Of a stretch of 64,000 nt of DNA, positions 18,152 through 35,099 are shown in pieces. The DNA lies in contig NZ_JAPDMU010000001.1 in NCBI RefSeq assembly GCF_026319325.1, forward strand, positions 1 to 64,000. The letters run 5' to 3'. A program made the position numbers and the translations under genes. Under the pieces are notes generated by a model. That model had not been told where the DNA came from. It made no database searches and worked only from the letters and a program-made list of their open reading frames with translations. This DNA is from Methylophaga sp. OBS3 (GTDB taxonomy: Bacteria; Pseudomonadota; Gammaproteobacteria; Nitrosococcales; Methylophagaceae). Each line of letters starts with the position of its first letter. Position 1 is the stretch's first letter.

Positions 18152-18766
18152 TTATAACGCTTTGAGTAGTGCGGGTAAGTCCAGAACATGGGTTAAACCA
18201 GAGAGTAGGGTGCCAGAGAACCATGGTCTTTGACCGGGTTGGCGCCATTTGCAATCTTCTTCTGTGATGGTCATGACTTTTTTGACGCTAGTGACTGCAA
18301 GTCCCCAGCGTTTATCATCAACTAACAAAATATAACGAGCTGGGCGCTGGTCTTGTGATTCTGGCTGTAATACCACCGATGGGTCCACTACTTGGGTATG
18401 TAAGCCGGGCTGGCTTAATAATCCAATGTAATGGGCAGGTTTATCGGCAATTTTATGTAGAGGTGTTTCAGGCCACTTTTCGATGCCATTGAGTTGTTCA
18501 AGTGGCAGCGCAAGTGAGATGCCTTGAACTTCGAAAATCAGTGCCTGAAATGGCGTGCTGATGGTCGGTTCAACAGGCGCTGATTCTTCAGACTGTTGAT
18601 CATTAATGACCTCAGGGGGATCTATAACTACGTCAGTTGTTAAGGGAATACTTGGCGCTGGAGACGTCTCAACTAATTCATTAGTTGTAATGCTTTCGTT
18701 CAGCATATCTTGAAGATACTGCTGTAAGGCATCTTGATGATCTAATAAACGTTTTGGTTCAGACAT
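18152..18766 (-). CDS. parP: ParP-like CheW-domain protein (polar array localisation)
   Basis: A 204-residue protein with a variable, acidic, Pro-rich N-terminus (about 1-85) and a C-terminal CheW-like domain (about 88-204: FQALIFEVQGISLALPLEQLN, YIGLLSQPG, WRQPGQRPWFSGTLLSG). In Vibrio and Pseudomonas, ParP sits next to ParC and retains chemotaxis arrays at the cell pole through CheA and receptors. Here it overlaps the ParA-like gene by 8 bases, which supports the same assignment. It was formerly annotated as a second CheW. Confidence 0.85.
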   Translation of the reverse strand: MSEPKRLLDHQDALQQYLQDMLNESITTNELVETSPAPSIPLTTDVVIDPPEVINDQQSEESAPVEPTISTPFQALIFEVQGISLALPLEQLNGIEKWPETPLHKIADKPAHYIGLLSQPGLHTQVVDPSVVLQPESQDQRPARYILLVDDKRWGLAVTSVKKVMTITEEDCKWRQPGQRPWFSGTLLSGLTHVLDLPALLKAL

Positions 18767-19556
18767 AAGCTTGCGCCACAGTTTGTTCTGTTGTCTTTTG
18801 CAAATATTTTAGCAAGCTTGAATAGGCTTCGCTCCCACGTGACTCCGGCGCGATAATCGGTAATGGAATACCGGCTTTGCTGGCATCACGAAAGCGTGTG
18901 TCTTCCGGAATATTTTGTGGCCATATCGCGTCAGGATATTGCATCTGTAATTGCAGTAAACTCTGGTTGGCTGCACGTGTCCGTTTATCGTACATCGTTG
19001 GCACAATCACATAAGGAATTTTTTGCCGGCGGGAATGATTAATCATTGCCATGGTATGCAGCATCTTCTCTAGGCCTTTAATGGCTAGAAATTCTGTCTG
19101 TACCGGGATTAATAGTTTGTCACAGGCTGCGAGGGCATTAATCATCAAAACCCCGAGCATGGGGGGACAGTCAATCAGCACGTATTCAAAACGATCTTGT
19201 AGATGTTGCAACGTTTGTTTGATGACCAAACCCTTGCCACTTTGTACGCCGAGTTGTCGGTCTAATGTCGCCATTGCGGTTGCCGCTGGCAACAAAAATA
19301 AATTGGGTACCCGTGTTTTCTTGAGTGCTTGCAAAATAGCGCTATTCGGATTGCTGTCTAACTGTTGAAACAGCGTGTAAATACTGCTTTCAAGTTGGTC
19401 TGGGTCGTAGCCAAGATAGGTGGTTAATGAACCATGTGGATCCATATCAAGCACTAAGGTGCTATGACCTTTTTGGGCCAATATGCTGGCCAGGCTAATA
19501 ACGCTTGTTGTTTTACCCACACCACCTTTTTGATTGGCGACAGCCCAGACAATCAT
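18759..19556 (-). CDS. parC: ParA/Soj-family ATPase ParC (chemotaxis array positioning)
   Basis: A 265-residue MinD/ParA ATPase. The deviant Walker A (KGGVGKTTSVISLA) starts near residue 9, followed by the LVLDMDPHGSLTTYLG switch and YVLIDCPPMLG. It lies between motD and parP, the conserved place of ParC, which segregates chemotaxis arrays to the poles instead of plasmids. It overlaps motD by 4 bases (ATGA) and parP by 8. The parC name follows the Vibrio chemotaxis nomenclature and is unrelated to topoisomerase IV. Confidence 0.88.
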   Translation of the reverse strand: MIVWAVANQKGGVGKTTSVISLASILAQKGHSTLVLDMDPHGSLTTYLGYDPDQLESSIYTLFQQLDSNPNSAILQALKKTRVPNLFLLPAATAMATLDRQLGVQSGKGLVIKQTLQHLQDRFEYVLIDCPPMLGVLMINALAACDKLLIPVQTEFLAIKGLEKMLHTMAMINHSRRQKIPYVIVPTMYDKRTRAANQSLLQLQMQYPDAIWPQNIPEDTRFRDASKAGIPLPIIAPESRGSEAYSSLLKYLQKTTEQTVAQAYV

Positions 19557-22246: not shown

Positions 22247-24226
22247 TTAGTATCCGCGGTGGGCATAGGCTGCCATGAGTTCTGGAAAGTCCAGAATCAG
22301 CGCTATACGGCCGTCACCGGTAATAGTCGCGCCAGCGAGTCCTTTAGTCCCATGCAGCAATGCACCCAATGGTTTGATAACCACTTCTTCTTGTCCAATC
22401 AACTGGTCAACAACAAAACCAACCTTTTGTGTACCGACATTCACAATAACAACATGTTCGGTTTCTGGTTTTTCAACGTCACCAATGTCACGTGTTAACC
22501 ATTTTCTTAAATAGAATAGCGGTAAGGCTTTATTCCGAACCATGACAGTTTGTTGACCATCAACAGTATTGGTTTTTCGTAGGTCGAGATTAAAGATTTC
22601 ATTAACGCTGACTAATGGGAAAGCGAAAATTTGGTTTCCTAACATCACCATCAGTGTTGGCATGATTGCCAAGGTCAATGGGACTTTAATAGATAGAATT
22701 GTGCCTTTGCCAACCTCAGATTGAATATCAATCACACCATTTAATTTGGCAATACTGGTTTTAACAACATCCATACCGACGCCGCGGCCAGAGATGTCTG
22801 AAATCTCTTGTTTCATCGAGAAGCCGGGGGCAAAAATCAACGCAAAACACTCTGACTCAGTAAGGCGCGATGCGGCATCTTCATCCATCATGCCTTTTTC
22901 AACAGCTTTACGACGCAGTATTTCTGGATTCATACCGGCACCATCATCAGAGATGGTGAGTAAAATATGATCACCTTCCTGAGCGGCCCCTAAGATGATT
23001 TCACCCGTTCTTGGCTTGCCAGCGGCTTCACGAACATCCGGCATTTCAATGCCGTGATCGACTGCATTACGAACTAAATGCACTAATGGGTCAGCAAGTG
23101 CTTCAACCAAGTTTTTGTCTAAATCGGTTTCTTCACCACGCAGTTCGAGATTGATATCTTTTTTCAGGTTACGCGCCAAATCTCGGACAACCCGTGGGAA
23201 ACGACCAAAAACCTTTTTGATCGGCTGCATACGGGTTTTCATAACTGCTGTTTGCAGATCCGCAGTGACGACAGCCAGATTATTGACGGCCTTAGCCATT
23301 TCTTCATCTTCAAAAGCGGCTTCGAGCGTATTAATGCGGTTACGAACTAAAACCAGTTCGCCAACCATATTCATAATTTCATCTAGTCGCGCGGTATCAA
23401 CACGCACACTGGTTTCAGCAGCAGGAGCTGCCGGCTTAGCTGGTGCTGCTTTATCTTTTGCGGCTGGTTCAGCACTTGGCGCAGGAGTAGGGGGTTCCGC
23501 TTTAACTGCCTCGACTTTAGGCTCTGGTTTCGGCGCAGGAGCGGGTTGTGCTGCGGCTTTCTTACCTTGTAATTCATCTAGGAGTGCTTCGAATTCCTCC
23601 TCAGTCATCTCATCATCAGCTGCAGCTGAGCTCGAGCTTGCAGGTGGTTCAGGAGTAGCAGGTTGTGATGCACTGCCGGGAGCATTATTACCGTGTAACT
23701 GGTCAAGTAGTGCTTCAAACTCGTCATCGGTAATATCATCACTCGCGCTTGCTGAGATCTCAGCTGCCGGTGCTTCAATAACTGGCTCTGGTTTTGGCGG
23801 TGGAGGCGGCGCAGGTTGCGCGGCTGGAGCTGGTGCATCACCATCAAGATAAGATGACAAATGACTTAAGATCGCTGGATCAGCTGGGCTTGGAAACTCG
23901 CCACCTTTCACTTCGGCAAACATACCATTCAAGCTATCCAGGACCTTGAGGAAAGTATCCATCATGTCGGCGTCAACTTGACGCTCACCCTGACGCAGCA
24001 GATTAAAAACGTCTTCGCCTTTATGACACAAGGTAACCATGGCTTCTAAACTTAAAAAGCCAGCGCCACCTTTGATGGTGTGAAATCCCCGAAAGATCGC
24101 ATTCAGCAGATCGCTGTCTTGCGGTTGCGACTCTAGGGCAACAAGTTGCTCATTGAGGCCATCGAGGATTTCCTCAGCCTCAACCATAAAGTCCTGGAGA
24201 ATTTCATCATCAGTATCCAGCGCCAT
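22247..24226 (-). CDS. cheA: Chemotaxis histidine kinase CheA
   Basis: A 659-residue kinase. The Hpt domain (about 1-110) has its phosphorylated His in HTIKGGAGF (His49). A long Pro/Ala-rich linker (about 130-272) carries two copies of an acidic EFEALLD motif (163-180 and 205-222). Dimerisation (about 275-340), the HATPase domain (NAVDHG, DDGAGM, GRGVGMDVV) and the CheW-like regulatory domain (about 520-659) follow. All kinase boxes look intact. Encoded between cheZ and cheB. Confidence 0.96.
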   Translation of the reverse strand: MALDTDDEILQDFMVEAEEILDGLNEQLVALESQPQDSDLLNAIFRGFHTIKGGAGFLSLEAMVTLCHKGEDVFNLLRQGERQVDADMMDTFLKVLDSLNGMFAEVKGGEFPSPADPAILSHLSSYLDGDAPAPAAQPAPPPPPKPEPVIEAPAAEISASASDDITDDEFEALLDQLHGNNAPGSASQPATPEPPASSSSAAADDEMTEEEFEALLDELQGKKAAAQPAPAPKPEPKVEAVKAEPPTPAPSAEPAAKDKAAPAKPAAPAAETSVRVDTARLDEIMNMVGELVLVRNRINTLEAAFEDEEMAKAVNNLAVVTADLQTAVMKTRMQPIKKVFGRFPRVVRDLARNLKKDINLELRGEETDLDKNLVEALADPLVHLVRNAVDHGIEMPDVREAAGKPRTGEIILGAAQEGDHILLTISDDGAGMNPEILRRKAVEKGMMDEDAASRLTESECFALIFAPGFSMKQEISDISGRGVGMDVVKTSIAKLNGVIDIQSEVGKGTILSIKVPLTLAIMPTLMVMLGNQIFAFPLVSVNEIFNLDLRKTNTVDGQQTVMVRNKALPLFYLRKWLTRDIGDVEKPETEHVVIVNVGTQKVGFVVDQLIGQEEVVIKPLGALLHGTKGLAGATITGDGRIALILDFPELMAAYAHRGY

Positions 24227-24238
24227 ACTCGCTTTCCT

Positions 24239-24970
24239 TTAGAAGCCGAGACTCGACAATAAGTCGTCGACATCATCCTGGTTGTTAACCACATTTGCCG
24301 GTTTATCTTTTTTGATTTGCGGCCCTTCGGCTTTCAAGGGATCAACTTTTTCTGGGCTGGGGGCAGACTCGGGTTGACCAGCGAGTTTCACCAGTCTAAT
24401 CAAGTTGTGTTCTACCTCTTCTACCAGTCCAATAACTTGCCGTAAAACTTGTCCAGTTAGATCCTGAAAACCCTGTGCCAGCGTTACTTCAGACAGATTG
24501 TGATGGATCTGACTGGCGTTCGTGCTGACCGACGGCAAGTAGGCTTCAATTTCACGACTTAATTTGCGAAATTCTTCAGCAGACATTTCACGATTACGAA
24601 AACGTTGCCAACTTGCATCAAGTTTAGCGGCAGTATTCTGTAATTCATTAGCGAGAGGTAAGGTTTCATCAATGAATCCCAAAGTTTTGTGAGCAGCGGC
24701 TTCCGTCGTTTCAATGACGTAATTAAGCCGATCACGCGTATCGGGCATTTCTTTTTGTGTTAAATCGACCAGACGACGATCGACTTTAAAATTATTCAAT
24801 GCGTCGTGGAGTTCGCGGGTAAGTTTGCCAACTTCTTGAAAAAGTTCGGTTTCACGACTTTCGCTTAGTTTGGCAAGCTGCGTTTTTGCAGCAGCGTCGT
24901 CATCTTGTTCCAGCGCGGTTAACAAGGCGCGGGCGGCTTCTATTTGGGCCGCTTTCATTTCTGATCGCAT
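24239..24970 (-). CDS. cheZ: CheY-P phosphatase CheZ
   Basis: A 243-residue, largely helical protein that dephosphorylates CheY-P. The long hairpin region contains HHNLSEVTLAQGFQDLTGQVLRQV, with the catalytic Gln in AQGFQDLTGQ. The C-terminal peptide DDVDDLLSSLGF is the conserved CheY-binding tail, joined by a flexible Lys/Pro-rich linker. Lies between cheY (18 bases upstream) and cheA. Confidence 0.94.
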   Translation of the reverse strand: MRSEMKAAQIEAARALLTALEQDDDAAAKTQLAKLSESRETELFQEVGKLTRELHDALNNFKVDRRLVDLTQKEMPDTRDRLNYVIETTEAAAHKTLGFIDETLPLANELQNTAAKLDASWQRFRNREMSAEEFRKLSREIEAYLPSVSTNASQIHHNLSEVTLAQGFQDLTGQVLRQVIGLVEEVEHNLIRLVKLAGQPESAPSPEKVDPLKAEGPQIKKDKPANVVNNQDDVDDLLSSLGF

Positions 24971-24988: not shown

Positions 24989-25366
24989 TTATTGGGCGTT
25001 AATTCGTTCGAAGATTTTTTCAATTTTTTCTTTCAAGGTTGCAGCGGTGAAAGGTTTGACAATATAGCCATTCACACCAGCTTGCGCTGCTTCAATGATT
25101 TGTTCACGCTTGGTTTCAGCGGTCACCATTAACACAGGTAATGTTGATAACTTTTCGTCTGCACGAACGGCTTTCAGCAAATCAATACCTTGCATGCCAG
25201 GCATGTTCCAGTCTGTTACCAAAAAGTCGATACCACCGGCTTGTAAAATCGGTAGGGCAGTCAAACCATCATCGGCTTCCTGTGTGTTGTGAAAGCCAAG
25301 ATCCCGCAACAGGTTCTTGATAATCCGGCGCATTGTGGAAAAGTCATCCACAATGAGGATCTTCAT
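24989..25366 (-). CDS. cheY: Chemotaxis response regulator CheY
   Basis: A single-domain response regulator of 125 residues that binds FliM when phosphorylated and switches flagellar rotation. Acidic pair VDDF, phospho-Asp in [11 protein letters not shown], Thr in MVTAETKR and Lys in YIVKPF are all present. The start chosen is the ATG giving [15 protein letters not shown], which matches the Pseudomonas CheY start. A TTG 12 bases earlier with a GGGAG ahead of it would add MDKN. Confidence 0.95.
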
Positions 25367-25394
25367 ATTTTTGTCCAAAGTCGTACTCCCAAAA

Positions 25395-28200: not shown

Positions 28201-30282
28201 CTAGCGGCCAACATTGGCGACAATACGAATCTGTTTGTCATCCGGTATTTCGTTATAGGAAAGGACATGTAGCCCAGGAATGGCGTGACGGATAAAACGA
28301 GAAATCCAACCACGTAAACCTGCCTGTACCACCAAAATCCCAGCTTCACCCGCCATTTCTTGGCGTTGTGCCGCTTCCTGTAAGTTACGGTGCATGTTTT
28401 CAGCAAGGCCAGGTTCGAGACTGGCACCACCTTCACCGGATGCTTGTAATGTTTTTAGCAATATTTGTTCCAGCTCAGGGTCAAGCGTGATGATTGGGAG
28501 GTCAGATTTTGTGCCATTGATGTGTTGGACGATAGAGTGAGCCAACGACATCCGAACGGCAGCGGTAATGGCTTCAGGATCTGGGTTACGCGCTGCTTGC
28601 TCAGAAATCGCTTCAGTAATCGTGCGAATATCACGAATGGGAATATTTTCTTGTAGCAGATTTTGCAGGACTTTTTGCACTGTACCGAGTGGAACTGTAT
28701 CAGGTACCAAGCCCTCAACCAGTTTCGGCGCGATCTTGCCAAGGTTATCCAATAGATGTTGAACCTCTTCACGGCCCAAGAGATCGTGTGCATGGTTTTG
28801 CAAAATTTTACTGAGGTGTGTTGCCACAACGGTGTCAACGTCAACAACCGTATACCCTTGAGCTTGAGCGGTTTCACGTTGCGCAGAATCAATCCAAACC
28901 GCTTCTAAACCAAAAGCAGGATCATGGGTGTGGATACCATCTAACTGACCAAATACCTGACCGGGATTAATGGCAAGCATCCGATCTGGGTAGACTTCAG
29001 CTTCACCAAAAGTCACCCCAAATAAGGTGATGTGATAAGCGGTCGGGGAGAGATCAAGATTATCTCGGATATGAACTGGCGGAATTAAGAACCCCATTTC
29101 CTGAGAAATTTTCTTACGTATCCCTTTGATACGATTCATTAATTGACCCCCTTGGTTTTTATCAACCAATGGAATCAGGCGATAACCCACTTCAAGACCA
29201 ATCGGATCAACAGGGCTAAGATCATCCCAACTAAGTTCACGTTGCTCTTTTGGTTGTTCGGCAGCCTCTGGTTTTTTGACTTCTTCAGCGGTGGCAACTT
29301 TTTGACGTTGTGACATTAACCAAGCACTACCACCACCAGCGCCAGCCAGTAGTAAAAACGGCAGGTTTGGCATACCTGGAATCATACCTAGGCCGCCAAT
29401 AATGCCCGAGGTAATGGCTAAGGTTTTTGGTTCTTTAAATAACTGACCAAAAATCTGTTTGCCCATGTCTTGTTCGCTGGTTGAACGAGTGACCAGCAAG
29501 CCCGCTGCAGCAGCTAATAACAATGAAGGGATTTGGGCAACCAAACCATCACCAATGGTCAGTAAAGTGTAGTTATGCGCTGCTTCACCAAAGCTGAGAC
29601 TGTGCTGTAGGGTACCGATGATAAGACCACCGATAATGTTGATAAACAGAATCAAAATACCGGCGACAGCGTCACCTCGGACAAACTTACTGGCACCATC
29701 CATCGAGCCGTAAAAGTCTGATTCCTGCATGATTTCTTCGCGTCGTTCACGTGCTTCATCTTGGGTAATCAAGCCAGCATTCAAATCGGCGTCAATCGCC
29801 ATTTGTTTACCGGGCATAGAATCTAAGGTGAAACGAGCGCTGACCTCTGCAATACGTGTGGCGCCTTTGGTTACAACAACAAAGTTGATGATGACCAGAA
29901 TGGCAAACACCACCAAACCGACGGCGTAGTTACCACCAATTACGAACGCACCAAAGGCTTCAATGACATCACCGGCTGATGCCGTCCCTGAATGGCCTTC
30001 GAGCAAAATGATTCGAGTAGAAGCCACGTTTAAGGCTAAACGTAGCAGGGTGGCAATTAAAAGAATGCTGGGGAAAGCTGCAAAATGCAGCGGTTTCAAC
30101 ACATAAACACTGGCGAGAACGATGACCAGTGATAATGCGATATTAAAAGTGAACAACATATCCAGCATGAAGGCTGGGAGTGGGATAACCACCATGGCCA
30201 GTAAGGCCACCAGTAACATTGGTGCGGCGACATTGCCGCTGAGCATGGAGCTAAAGCGGCGGCTCATGGTCATATTTTCCAT
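28201..30282 (-). CDS. flhA: Flagellar export gate protein FlhA
   Basis: A 693-residue export gate subunit. The N-terminal half has eight hydrophobic segments with the FHIPEP-type region (MPGKQMAIDADLNAGLI) at about 150-175. A linker at about 325-360 precedes the cytoplasmic FlhA-C domain (about 365-690), which forms the nonameric docking ring for chaperone-substrate complexes. Located 3 bases after flhB. Length is as expected. Confidence 0.96.
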   Translation of the reverse strand: MENMTMSRRFSSMLSGNVAAPMLLVALLAMVVIPLPAFMLDMLFTFNIALSLVIVLASVYVLKPLHFAAFPSILLIATLLRLALNVASTRIILLEGHSGTASAGDVIEAFGAFVIGGNYAVGLVVFAILVIINFVVVTKGATRIAEVSARFTLDSMPGKQMAIDADLNAGLITQDEARERREEIMQESDFYGSMDGASKFVRGDAVAGILILFINIIGGLIIGTLQHSLSFGEAAHNYTLLTIGDGLVAQIPSLLLAAAAGLLVTRSTSEQDMGKQIFGQLFKEPKTLAITSGIIGGLGMIPGMPNLPFLLLAGAGGGSAWLMSQRQKVATAEEVKKPEAAEQPKEQRELSWDDLSPVDPIGLEVGYRLIPLVDKNQGGQLMNRIKGIRKKISQEMGFLIPPVHIRDNLDLSPTAYHITLFGVTFGEAEVYPDRMLAINPGQVFGQLDGIHTHDPAFGLEAVWIDSAQRETAQAQGYTVVDVDTVVATHLSKILQNHAHDLLGREEVQHLLDNLGKIAPKLVEGLVPDTVPLGTVQKVLQNLLQENIPIRDIRTITEAISEQAARNPDPEAITAAVRMSLAHSIVQHINGTKSDLPIITLDPELEQILLKTLQASGEGGASLEPGLAENMHRNLQEAAQRQEMAGEAGILVVQAGLRGWISRFIRHAIPGLHVLSYNEIPDDKQIRIVANVGR

Positions 30283-33613: not shown

Positions 33614-34080
33614 CGTAGCTTTTTAATACGTTCAGCAGGGCTGATGACATCGGTCAGACGAATACCGAACTTGTCATTAACGACAACCACTTCACCGTGA
33701 GCAATCAGCGTGTCATTAACCAAGACATCCATTGGCTCACCCGCCAGTCTGTCTAACTCAACGACAGAACCTTGGCTCAGTTGCAGTAAGTTGCGGATTG
33801 GAATTCGAGTACGACCGATTTCCATTGAAATCGTGACCGGAATATCCATCACCATATCTAAATTGACGTCACTGCGTGGTTTACCACTGTCATCTAGTTT
33901 GGTCATTGGGGCAGCTTTAGCATCGACTTTAGGCGCTGCATTTTGTGCTTCGCTGTCAGCTTGCTCTTCAAGTGCTGCAGCCCAGTCATCCTCTGCACTG
34001 CTATCAGTGACTTGTTCTTCTAATGCGGCAGCCCATTCGTCGGCCAGATCTTGGTCGGGTTGTTTAGTATCTTCACTCAT
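33610..34080 (-). CDS. fliN: Flagellar C-ring protein FliN
   Basis: A 156-residue switch protein. The SpoA-type C-terminal domain (about 75-152) carries IPVTISMEIGRTRIPIRNLLQ and VVVVNDKFGIRLTDV. The N-terminal extension has two near-identical copies of a DEWAAALEEQ-like peptide (about 14-23 and 31-40), where FliN proteins commonly show one. Starts with an ATGA overlap on fliM. Confidence 0.94.
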   Translation of the reverse strand: MSEDTKQPDQDLADEWAAALEEQVTDSSAEDDWAAALEEQADSEAQNAAPKVDAKAAPMTKLDDSGKPRSDVNLDMVMDIPVTISMEIGRTRIPIRNLLQLSQGSVVELDRLAGEPMDVLVNDTLIAHGEVVVVNDKFGIRLTDVISPAERIKKLR

Positions 34081-35099
34081 TTTTGAGTTACCTTTTTCAT
34101 CTGGTAATTAGGTGTCGGATCTTTAGGGTGTTCAATGATTTTGGTGATTTTTAATGCAGCTTTATCGTTGTGTTCACCGTAATTAGCACGAAACATCGGC
34201 ACATCTTCAACCATGGCAACAAATTCATCAGCCATTTCAATAGGAATGATGTCGCCAGCCTTGAGGTTTCTGAGCTGTTCTAAGGTGAGTTTAGCCTGTG
34301 CTAACGTTGCTGAAAGTTGTACCTCAGCAATCATTAATTCTTCACGCATAGAGCGTCCCCAACGACCATCGTCAGCACTGCGATCACTTTGTAAACCGGT
34401 ATCGAGTAGTTCACGAATTGGCTCTAACATGGAGTAGGGAAGCGTGATGTGTAAATCACCGCCACCACCATCTAACTCAATGTGAAAGGTTGAAATAACC
34501 ACTACTTCACTTGGGCTAACAATATTGGCGAACTGAGGATTAACCTCGTGATTTACAAAGTCGAATTTTACCGGCATGACCGGCGACCAAGCTTCTGTTA
34601 GGTCTTCAAAACACAGATTTAAGACCATGCGAATAACGCGCAATTCGGTTGCGGTAAATTCTCGACCCTCGATACGAGCTGGGAAGCGACCCTCACCACC
34701 AAAATAGTTATCTAGTAGGGTAAATACCAGCTTGGGCTCAAACACGACAAGGCCAGTACCACGTAATGGGTGGAATTGAATGAGGTTCAAACTGGTGGGT
34801 ACGAACAAAGTATGCACGTACTCAGAAAACTTCATCACTTGTACGCCACTTACCGAAATTTCGGCAGAGCGACGCAACATATTGAAGAGGCTGATACGTA
34901 GATAACGGCCAAAACGCTCATTAATCATTTCAAGCGTTGGCATCCGTCCACGAATGATTCGCTCTTCATTACCAAAGTCATAACGGCGCGGCTTACCATG
35001 CTCGTCGAGTTCGACTTTTTCGGTTTCAAGATCACCGTCGCCAAGCCCGTTTAACAGAGCATCGACTTCGTCTTGAGAGAGAATATCGTGAACGGCCAT
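34077..35099 (-). CDS. fliM: Flagellar motor switch protein FliM
   Basis: A 340-residue C-ring protein. The N-terminal CheY-P-binding peptide is ILSQDEVDALLNGL (6-19). The middle CheC-like domain has RRYDFGNEERIIRGRMPTLE and GTGLVVFEPKLVFTLLDNYFGG, and the C-terminal SpoA domain lies at about 250-325. Located 2 bases after fliL. Complete. Confidence 0.96.
   Translation of the reverse strand: MAVHDILSQDEVDALLNGLGDGDLETEKVELDEHGKPRRYDFGNEERIIRGRMPTLEMINERFGRYLRISLFNMLRRSAEISVSGVQVMKFSEYVHTLFVPTSLNLIQFHPLRGTGLVVFEPKLVFTLLDNYFGGEGRFPARIEGREFTATELRVIRMVLNLCFEDLTEAWSPVMPVKFDFVNHEVNPQFANIVSPSEVVVISTFHIELDGGGGDLHITLPYSMLEPIRELLDTGLQSDRSADDGRWGRSMREELMIAEVQLSATLAQAKLTLEQLRNLKAGDIIPIEMADEFVAMVEDVPMFRANYGEHNDKAALKITKIIEHPKDPTPNYQMKKVTQK

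Follow-up and report, generated by a model that had tools for sequence, protein, structure and literature searches.

The cheA locus of Methylophaga sp. OBS3 bears on how a CheA kinase lacking a recognizable P2 domain recruits CheY, or whether it needs to do so. It lies in a stretch of 64,000 nucleotides (the window), where the linker between Hpt and P3 of CheA carries two acidic EFEALLD repeats. The first-pass annotation of this DNA had proposed that they act as a short linear substitute for P2, docking CheY or CheB in the manner of the CheY-binding peptides of FliM and CheZ. The features concerned are:

22247-24226, minus strand: cheA, 659 amino acids, with Hpt (P1) at residues 8-99, P3 at 272-331, P4 at 379-518 and P5 at 525-652 (Pfam)
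23690-23740, minus strand: repeat 1, CheA residues 163-179, DDITDDEFEALLDQLHG
23564-23614, minus strand: repeat 2, CheA residues 205-221, DEMTEEEFEALLDELQG
24239-24970, minus strand: cheZ, whose product ends in DDVDDLLSSLGF
24989-25378, minus strand: cheY, candidate partner of the repeats, with the FliM-contact residues K90, R91, I94, A98, Y105, V107, K118 and K121 present
18759-19556, minus strand: parC-like gene for a ParA-family ATPase
18152-18766, minus strand: parP-like gene, coding for an N-terminal extension and a CheW-fold domain
35043-35084, minus strand: FliM N-terminal peptide, residues 6-19, ILSQDEVDALLNGL, within fliM (34077-35099)

The operon is ordered flhF-flhG-fliA-cheY-cheZ-cheA-cheB-motA-motB-parC-parP-cheW, where the names flhF, flhG, fliA, motA and motB are presumed from the sequences. 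Among the best 80 of 585 related loci, the closest relatives of the window locus were those of Methylophaga.

Both repeats proved to be real features of the CheA linker, and the peptides with which they had been compared also read as first described, FliM residues 8-19 being SQDEVDALLNGL and the end of CheZ being as listed above. A 19-column repeat model was built from 55 rows (54 of 186 distinct repeats remaining after thinning, plus the first repeat of the window; both window copies were among the rows) and run against the whole genome. The two CheA copies were recovered at E 5.7e-10 and 5.5e-8, and neither FliM nor CheZ of the same genome was found by this model, even at E 10. The third match, at E 0.5 in the reading frame of a sensor kinase, was taken as chance. 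A loose six-frame pattern for the FliM/CheA form, composed after the repeats and FliM had been seen, gave three matches in the 64 kb window, namely both repeats and FliM. At the 11 positions with shared residues (Met and Trp excluded) the two repeats differ in six codons, so that they do not represent a fresh duplication of DNA. In an AlphaFold2 model of CheA (46 sequences), pLDDT was below 50 at linker residues 132-163, 179-206 and 221-278, and a short helix was predicted within each repeat:

23696-23728, minus strand: predicted helix, CheA residues 167-177, in the disordered linker (10-residue blocks with pLDDT 62 and 67)
23570-23602, minus strand: predicted helix, CheA residues 209-219, in the disordered linker (10-residue blocks with pLDDT 51 and 71)

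These two helices were the only structure in the linker of the model, which contained no folded alpha/beta domain, and no P2 or CheY-binding Pfam family matched the window CheA at E≤1. The earlier claim that no obvious P2 lies between Hpt and P3 was thereby upheld, within the reach of Pfam, which is reported to miss P2 in many CheA (PMC10782961) and which also left two P2-like linkers uncalled in this analysis. P2 was likewise absent among the 25 commonest of the 33 Pfam families matched in 46 of the 81 CheA proteins described below (a Pseudomonas protein, L022, included), and eight relatives without ParC gave no P2 Pfam match at E≤0.1, the CheY-binding family being found in the control L181. 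More than half of surveyed CheA are reported to be without P2, with a linker described as an extended unstructured region, and the P2 of E. coli is described as not essential for phosphotransfer (PMC10782961); since P2 is dispensable there, P2-less kinases may need no substitute at all. For the CheA of P. putida a Pfam CheY-binding (P2) domain is listed by the authors (PMC11978298), at odds with a reading of this CheA class as P2-less. The repeats share with P2 (PF07194, PF09078) the position between Hpt and P3 and, as proposed, the same job, and differ from it in having neither a profile match nor a folded domain in the model. The same genome encodes a second CheA (L185, G000:C3:194000-206000) with a folded-looking P1-P3 segment and, by eye, no repeats. 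Its likeness to a P2-bearing CheA is by eye only, with no P2 called by Pfam and a weak profile comparison (probability 28 percent), so that it carries no weight here.

Conservation was assessed in 81 proteins, consisting of the window CheA and those of the best 80 of 585 confirmed CheA loci, which had been sought with six patterns, one of them inside repeat 2 (a mild bias). All 81 linkers carried two to four copies (two in 16, three in 43 and four in 22), amounting to 249 repeats. The counting pattern, [DE][FY][DE]x[LMF][LM]..., itself restricts several columns, where counts are partly by construction; in these, the Phe and one Leu were present in 249 of 249 repeats with no other residue. In unrestricted columns, Ile was found in 239 and the last Leu in 233 of the 249 repeats from this same set (window plus best 80 of 585). 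A better measure comes from aligning 46 of the 81 proteins without recourse to a pattern: from residue 129 to 272, no column was invariant except E169, F170, L174, E211, F212, L216 and D217. Between the window CheA and those of L009, L018, L016 and L017, 26-32 of the 34 repeat residues were identical, versus 36-53 of 112 in the remaining linker. Repeat identity was lower in more distant relatives, down to 12 of 34 in L161 because its CheA has one copy.

These figures bear on whether the repeats merely keep a flexible acidic Pro/Ala linker soluble or extended. The low complexity and variable length of the linker would suit such a role, as would the roughly eight copies in G039, whereas the excess of identity within the repeats and the invariance of specific hydrophobic residues speak against it, and we consider it highly improbable. 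The CheA of G039 (L169, G039:C33:7000-15000; 1068 amino acids) is an extreme expansion in copy number, with seven of its approximately eight copies recognized by the strict pattern and a long Ala/Pro/Lys tandem tract following them. In L155 (G178), CheA is present as two overlapping reading frames in the assembly. Pfam matches of SHOCT and GemA on the repeats fell short of the cut-off in the window CheA and were dismissed as fortuitous; SHOCT nevertheless matched 42 of the 46 CheA at E≤0.1, and in L160 and L169 it exceeded its bit threshold.

Likeness to the FliM and CheZ peptides was measured by sliding each peptide without gaps along the genes surrounding cheA, CheZ excluded, and scoring it at each position. 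Using the FliM 14-mer ILSQDEVDALLNGL, a CheA repeat ranked first in 40 of 81 loci (window plus best 80 of 585), with a median rank of 2, and none of 100 shuffled FliM peptides reached 40 loci (mean 1.07, maximum 19). The proposed likeness to FliM therefore goes beyond composition. With the CheZ tail, a CheA repeat came first in only 10 of the same 81 loci (window plus best 80 of 585), a number that 11 of 100 shuffled peptides equalled, so that this half of the original comparison did no better than shuffled peptides. A profile of the CheZ C-terminus (16 distinct sequences) also missed the repeats and was set aside, its top non-CheZ site falling in CheA in only 14 of these loci (again the window and best 80 of 585). 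Repeats and CheZ C-terminus have in common the form of a short acidic xxLLxxLG helix. A PDB search with the FliM N-terminus gave no match at E≤1. In the window, a segment of FlhA (28201-30282), LLGREEVQHLLDNL, scores higher than the CheA repeats for likeness to the FliM peptide.

The FliM residues that touch CheY are given as L6, I11, D12 and L14 in E. coli, with L15 added in a docking model of V. cholerae (PMC3774744, Table 3). Aligned with the first repeat, these five contacts correspond to CheA I165, F170, E171, L173 and L174, whose columns hold I in 239, F in 249, E/D in 249, L in 241 and L in 249 of the 249 repeats (window plus best 80 of 585), the last four columns having been constrained by the search pattern. 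Repeats and FliM peptide thus have in common the succession of S/T-cap, E, hydrophobic residue, D/E, LL and D/N, and conserved columns of the repeats correspond to most of the residues in contact with CheY. The repeats differ in lying inside a kinase linker, mostly in two to four copies, and in having Phe for Ile/Val, D/E in place of the unmatched contact Q8, and an LHG tail. On the CheY side, I95, A99, Y106 and K119 (E. coli numbering) never varied among 89 proteins, V108 was kept in 87, K91 in 85 and K122 in 84, and position 92 was R or K. The contact face is therefore retained, relatives without ParC included; this is expected from FliM alone, so it does not discriminate between explanations.

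One explanation was absent from the first-pass annotation although parC and parP stand in the same operon. A Localization and Inheritance Domain (CheA-LID) of Vibrio was reportedly described by Ringgaard in 2014. The CheA-LID of Vibrio also figures in Alvarado 2017. The LID is defined as the CheA segment bound by the AIF domain of ParP (PMC5706961), is placed between P2 and P3 (PMC7534058), and is reported to occur only together with ParC/ParP (PMC5706961; PMC7534058). The repeats could then be this known LID and nothing else, binding the AIF domain so that ParC holds the chemosensory array at the pole. The window repeats fit the location, being situated ahead of P3 in the linker of a CheA whose operon also contains parC and parP, and the ParP of this operon has the conserved Trp (W182, invariant among 29 aligned ParP). 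One Vibrio-like genome encodes a CheY almost identical to that of PDB 3to5; its CheA linker contains three repeats, Pfam calls no P2 in it, and the operon also encodes ParC/ParP. There, the LID must contain, overlap or adjoin the repeats, and we infer that the two are the same residues.

The motif model matched 143 of 369 genomes of the class at E≤0.001, and ParC was found in 135 (E≤1e-45). Both were present in 131 genomes, the motif only in 12, ParC only in four and neither in 222, a strong co-occurrence that also favours a LID-only role and that is largely due to the shared operon. The four genomes with ParC only (G197, G220, G239 and G364) were rejected as informative because of contig ends or a ParC split in two frames. 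The CheA type of the window, separated by a score gap (at least 453 versus at most 409 bits), occurs in 141 genomes; we call it F6-type, a label borrowed from the name of the V. cholerae cluster II system (PMC7534058). The motif was matched in 139 of these 141, counted per genome rather than per CheA protein. The exceptions were G220, in which a contig end truncates CheA, and G031, with two degenerate copies. Motif genomes outside the 141 were G058, G157 (a different CheA with one variant repeat copy), G234 and G361. Among the genomes with an F6-type CheA, 128 of the 129 that have ParC carried the motif, as did 11 of the 12 that do not (Fisher p 0.16), a non-significant association with low power, only 12 genomes lacking ParC. 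In a sample of the phylum the motif was matched in 62 of 398 genomes, all 62 of the same class, the share of the 398 lying outside that class not being given.

Thirteen genomes weigh against the LID as the whole explanation: G001, G002, G003, G007, G016, G028, G031, G032, G160, G176, G178, G198 and G303. Within what the assemblies cover, they have no ParC ortholog, and the ParP model scored at most 42.5 bits in them (with no match at all in G198 and G303), the weak matches being cheW genes where the loci were read. Repeats were nevertheless retained in all 13, in the strict form in 11, as EFExVLD in G016 and degenerate in G031. The reported rule that the LID occurs only with ParC/ParP fails for these repeats. 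Completeness of the 13 genomes was 91-100 percent where given (G001-G003 have no figure); L154 and L156 (G094 and G361), incomplete at the locus, and G185, with a ParP-like gene, were kept outside this set. The ParP model gave clear matches in G004 (117 bits), G185 (90 bits) and G013 (81 bits). In a control it found a clear ParP in only two of six ParC-bearing genomes (G004 and G013), scoring 37.8 bits beside parC in G144 and about 35 bits elsewhere in G062 and G199, with no match in G154. A divergent ParP could therefore be missed, to the advantage of the LID-only explanation.

Gene order points the other way. In the ParC-less loci that were read there was no gene-sized gap for parP between motB or cheA and cheW, the exception being L159 (G032), where the contig stops. 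The gene after motB is cheW in L016, L017 and L018, which are closely related to the window, and the ParC search there topped out at ParA paralogs with 30-34 percent identity. G062 and G199, which have ParC and no clear ParP, keep one repeat; in these loci (L174 and L177) parC lies directly between cheA and cheW, no parP is recognizable, and the repeat is of the strict form. When the absence of ParC (14 rows, including the ParP-bearing L158) was mapped on a tree of the CheA core, at least 10 changes were required, five of them forced by starred branches. This was a quick tree with long branches, in which gains are indistinguishable from losses; it held 102 of 104 rows, as no core match was obtained for L027 and for one protein of L176, and three of its seven rows labelled unknown (G039, G076 and G233) do have ParC. 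Taking both sides together, we judge it unlikely that the repeats serve as ParP-binding LID only. L158 (G185) presents ParP without ParC, with the parP-like gene in the operon and no ParC found.

CheB and CheZ were also weighed as partners in place of CheY. In the scheme given for E. coli, P2 docks both CheY and CheB, and in a pull-down with P. putida CheA both CheY and CheZ were highly enriched (PMC11978298). The latter result indicates that the CheA of that species holds CheY, and it would also accommodate CheZ. However, G160 and G303 gave no match to the CheB methylesterase and G028 and G176 none to CheZ, and all four keep the repeats. CheB, one of the partners first put forward, thus cannot be the only one; docking of CheB or CheZ as the sole function of the repeats is disfavoured, and we give docking of either rather than CheY very little credence. 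In G028 and G176 cheY adjoins cheA, and in 12 of the 13 genomes it has cheA or cheZ as a neighbour, the contig ending first in G160. With the repeats kept without ParC, clear ParP, CheB or CheZ, CheY is the simplest common partner. Both CheZ-less genomes contain an unusually long motB-like frame of 573 amino acids (L161, 13072-14793; L162, 13092-14813).

This elimination still leaves CheW, the receptors, FlhF/FlhG and CheA itself. The repeats might dock CheW or P5, which have the fold of ParP-AIF, or one of these other partners, and so act in kinase regulation or array stapling. The genes cheW, flhF and flhG stand beside cheA in most of the ParC-less loci that were read, and ParP-AIF is described as CheW-like (PMC5706961), so that a peptide binding AIF could bind CheW. 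Conversely, the Trp that V. cholerae ParP needs for CheA binding corresponds to Ser in T. maritima CheW (PMC5706961), and the AlphaFold2 model gave the repeats no confident position on CheA. We regard such a partner as improbable. We know of no FliM-like helix bound by CheW, P5, the receptors, FlhF/FlhG or CheA.

Our preferred reading, held with somewhat less than even confidence, is that the repeats serve as a tandem set of CheY-docking motifs in place of P2, and that ParP is an additional partner. Each repeat, of consensus [D/E][D/E]I[T/S]-[D/E]xEF[E/D]xLLDxLHG, would be a disordered segment able to form an acidic amphipathic helix, which may bind the alpha4-beta5-alpha5 face of CheY as the FliM N-terminus does. 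In the F6-type CheA of Gammaproteobacteria, seemingly without P2, the repeats could in this way keep CheY near the phosphorylated Hpt, and several copies would raise its local concentration; where ParC and ParP exist, this linker, the LID of the literature, would also be used by ParP. On the present data docking of CheY stands ahead of a role in ParP binding only, and it is plausible, with the likeness to FliM rather than to CheZ in its favour. What sets the repeats apart from the LID as described is their retention without ParC and clear ParP; the linker before P3 and the type of operon with ParC and ParP are common to both. Of the original interpretation, the missing P2 and the likeness to FliM thus remain, and the likeness to CheZ and CheB as sole partner do not.

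A wider version of this idea is more doubtful. In the flagellar CheA class of Gammaproteobacteria, a folded P2 might have been replaced by a tunable set of one to eight FliM-mimicking helices that capture CheY; the LID might be this array with ParP added, so that anchoring at the pole and phosphorylation of CheY would compete for the linker or share it. In a literature search in which most subscription papers were beyond reach, we recognized no description of the repeats as CheY-docking motifs. If docking of CheY is correct, the kinases without P2 in Pseudomonas, Shewanella, Marinobacter and many others would gain a defined, mutable CheY-docking element, and the ParP-binding role assigned to the CheA linker in the literature would need to be read again.

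A weak point of the CheY-docking reading is the form of CheY that would be bound. FliM-N binds activated CheY in a BeF3-dependent manner (PMC3774744), whereas docking of a substrate needs the unphosphorylated form. One may speculate that the Phe and the LHG tail of the repeats change this preference. The idea that the HG tail alone depends on ParP was dropped, as the tail is kept in most ParP-less relatives. A variant-tail lineage without ParC and clear ParP (L160 and L164, from G198 and G303, the latter also without a CheB match) reads EFEALLNQRD... and EFEQLLQMRE... in place of LHG.
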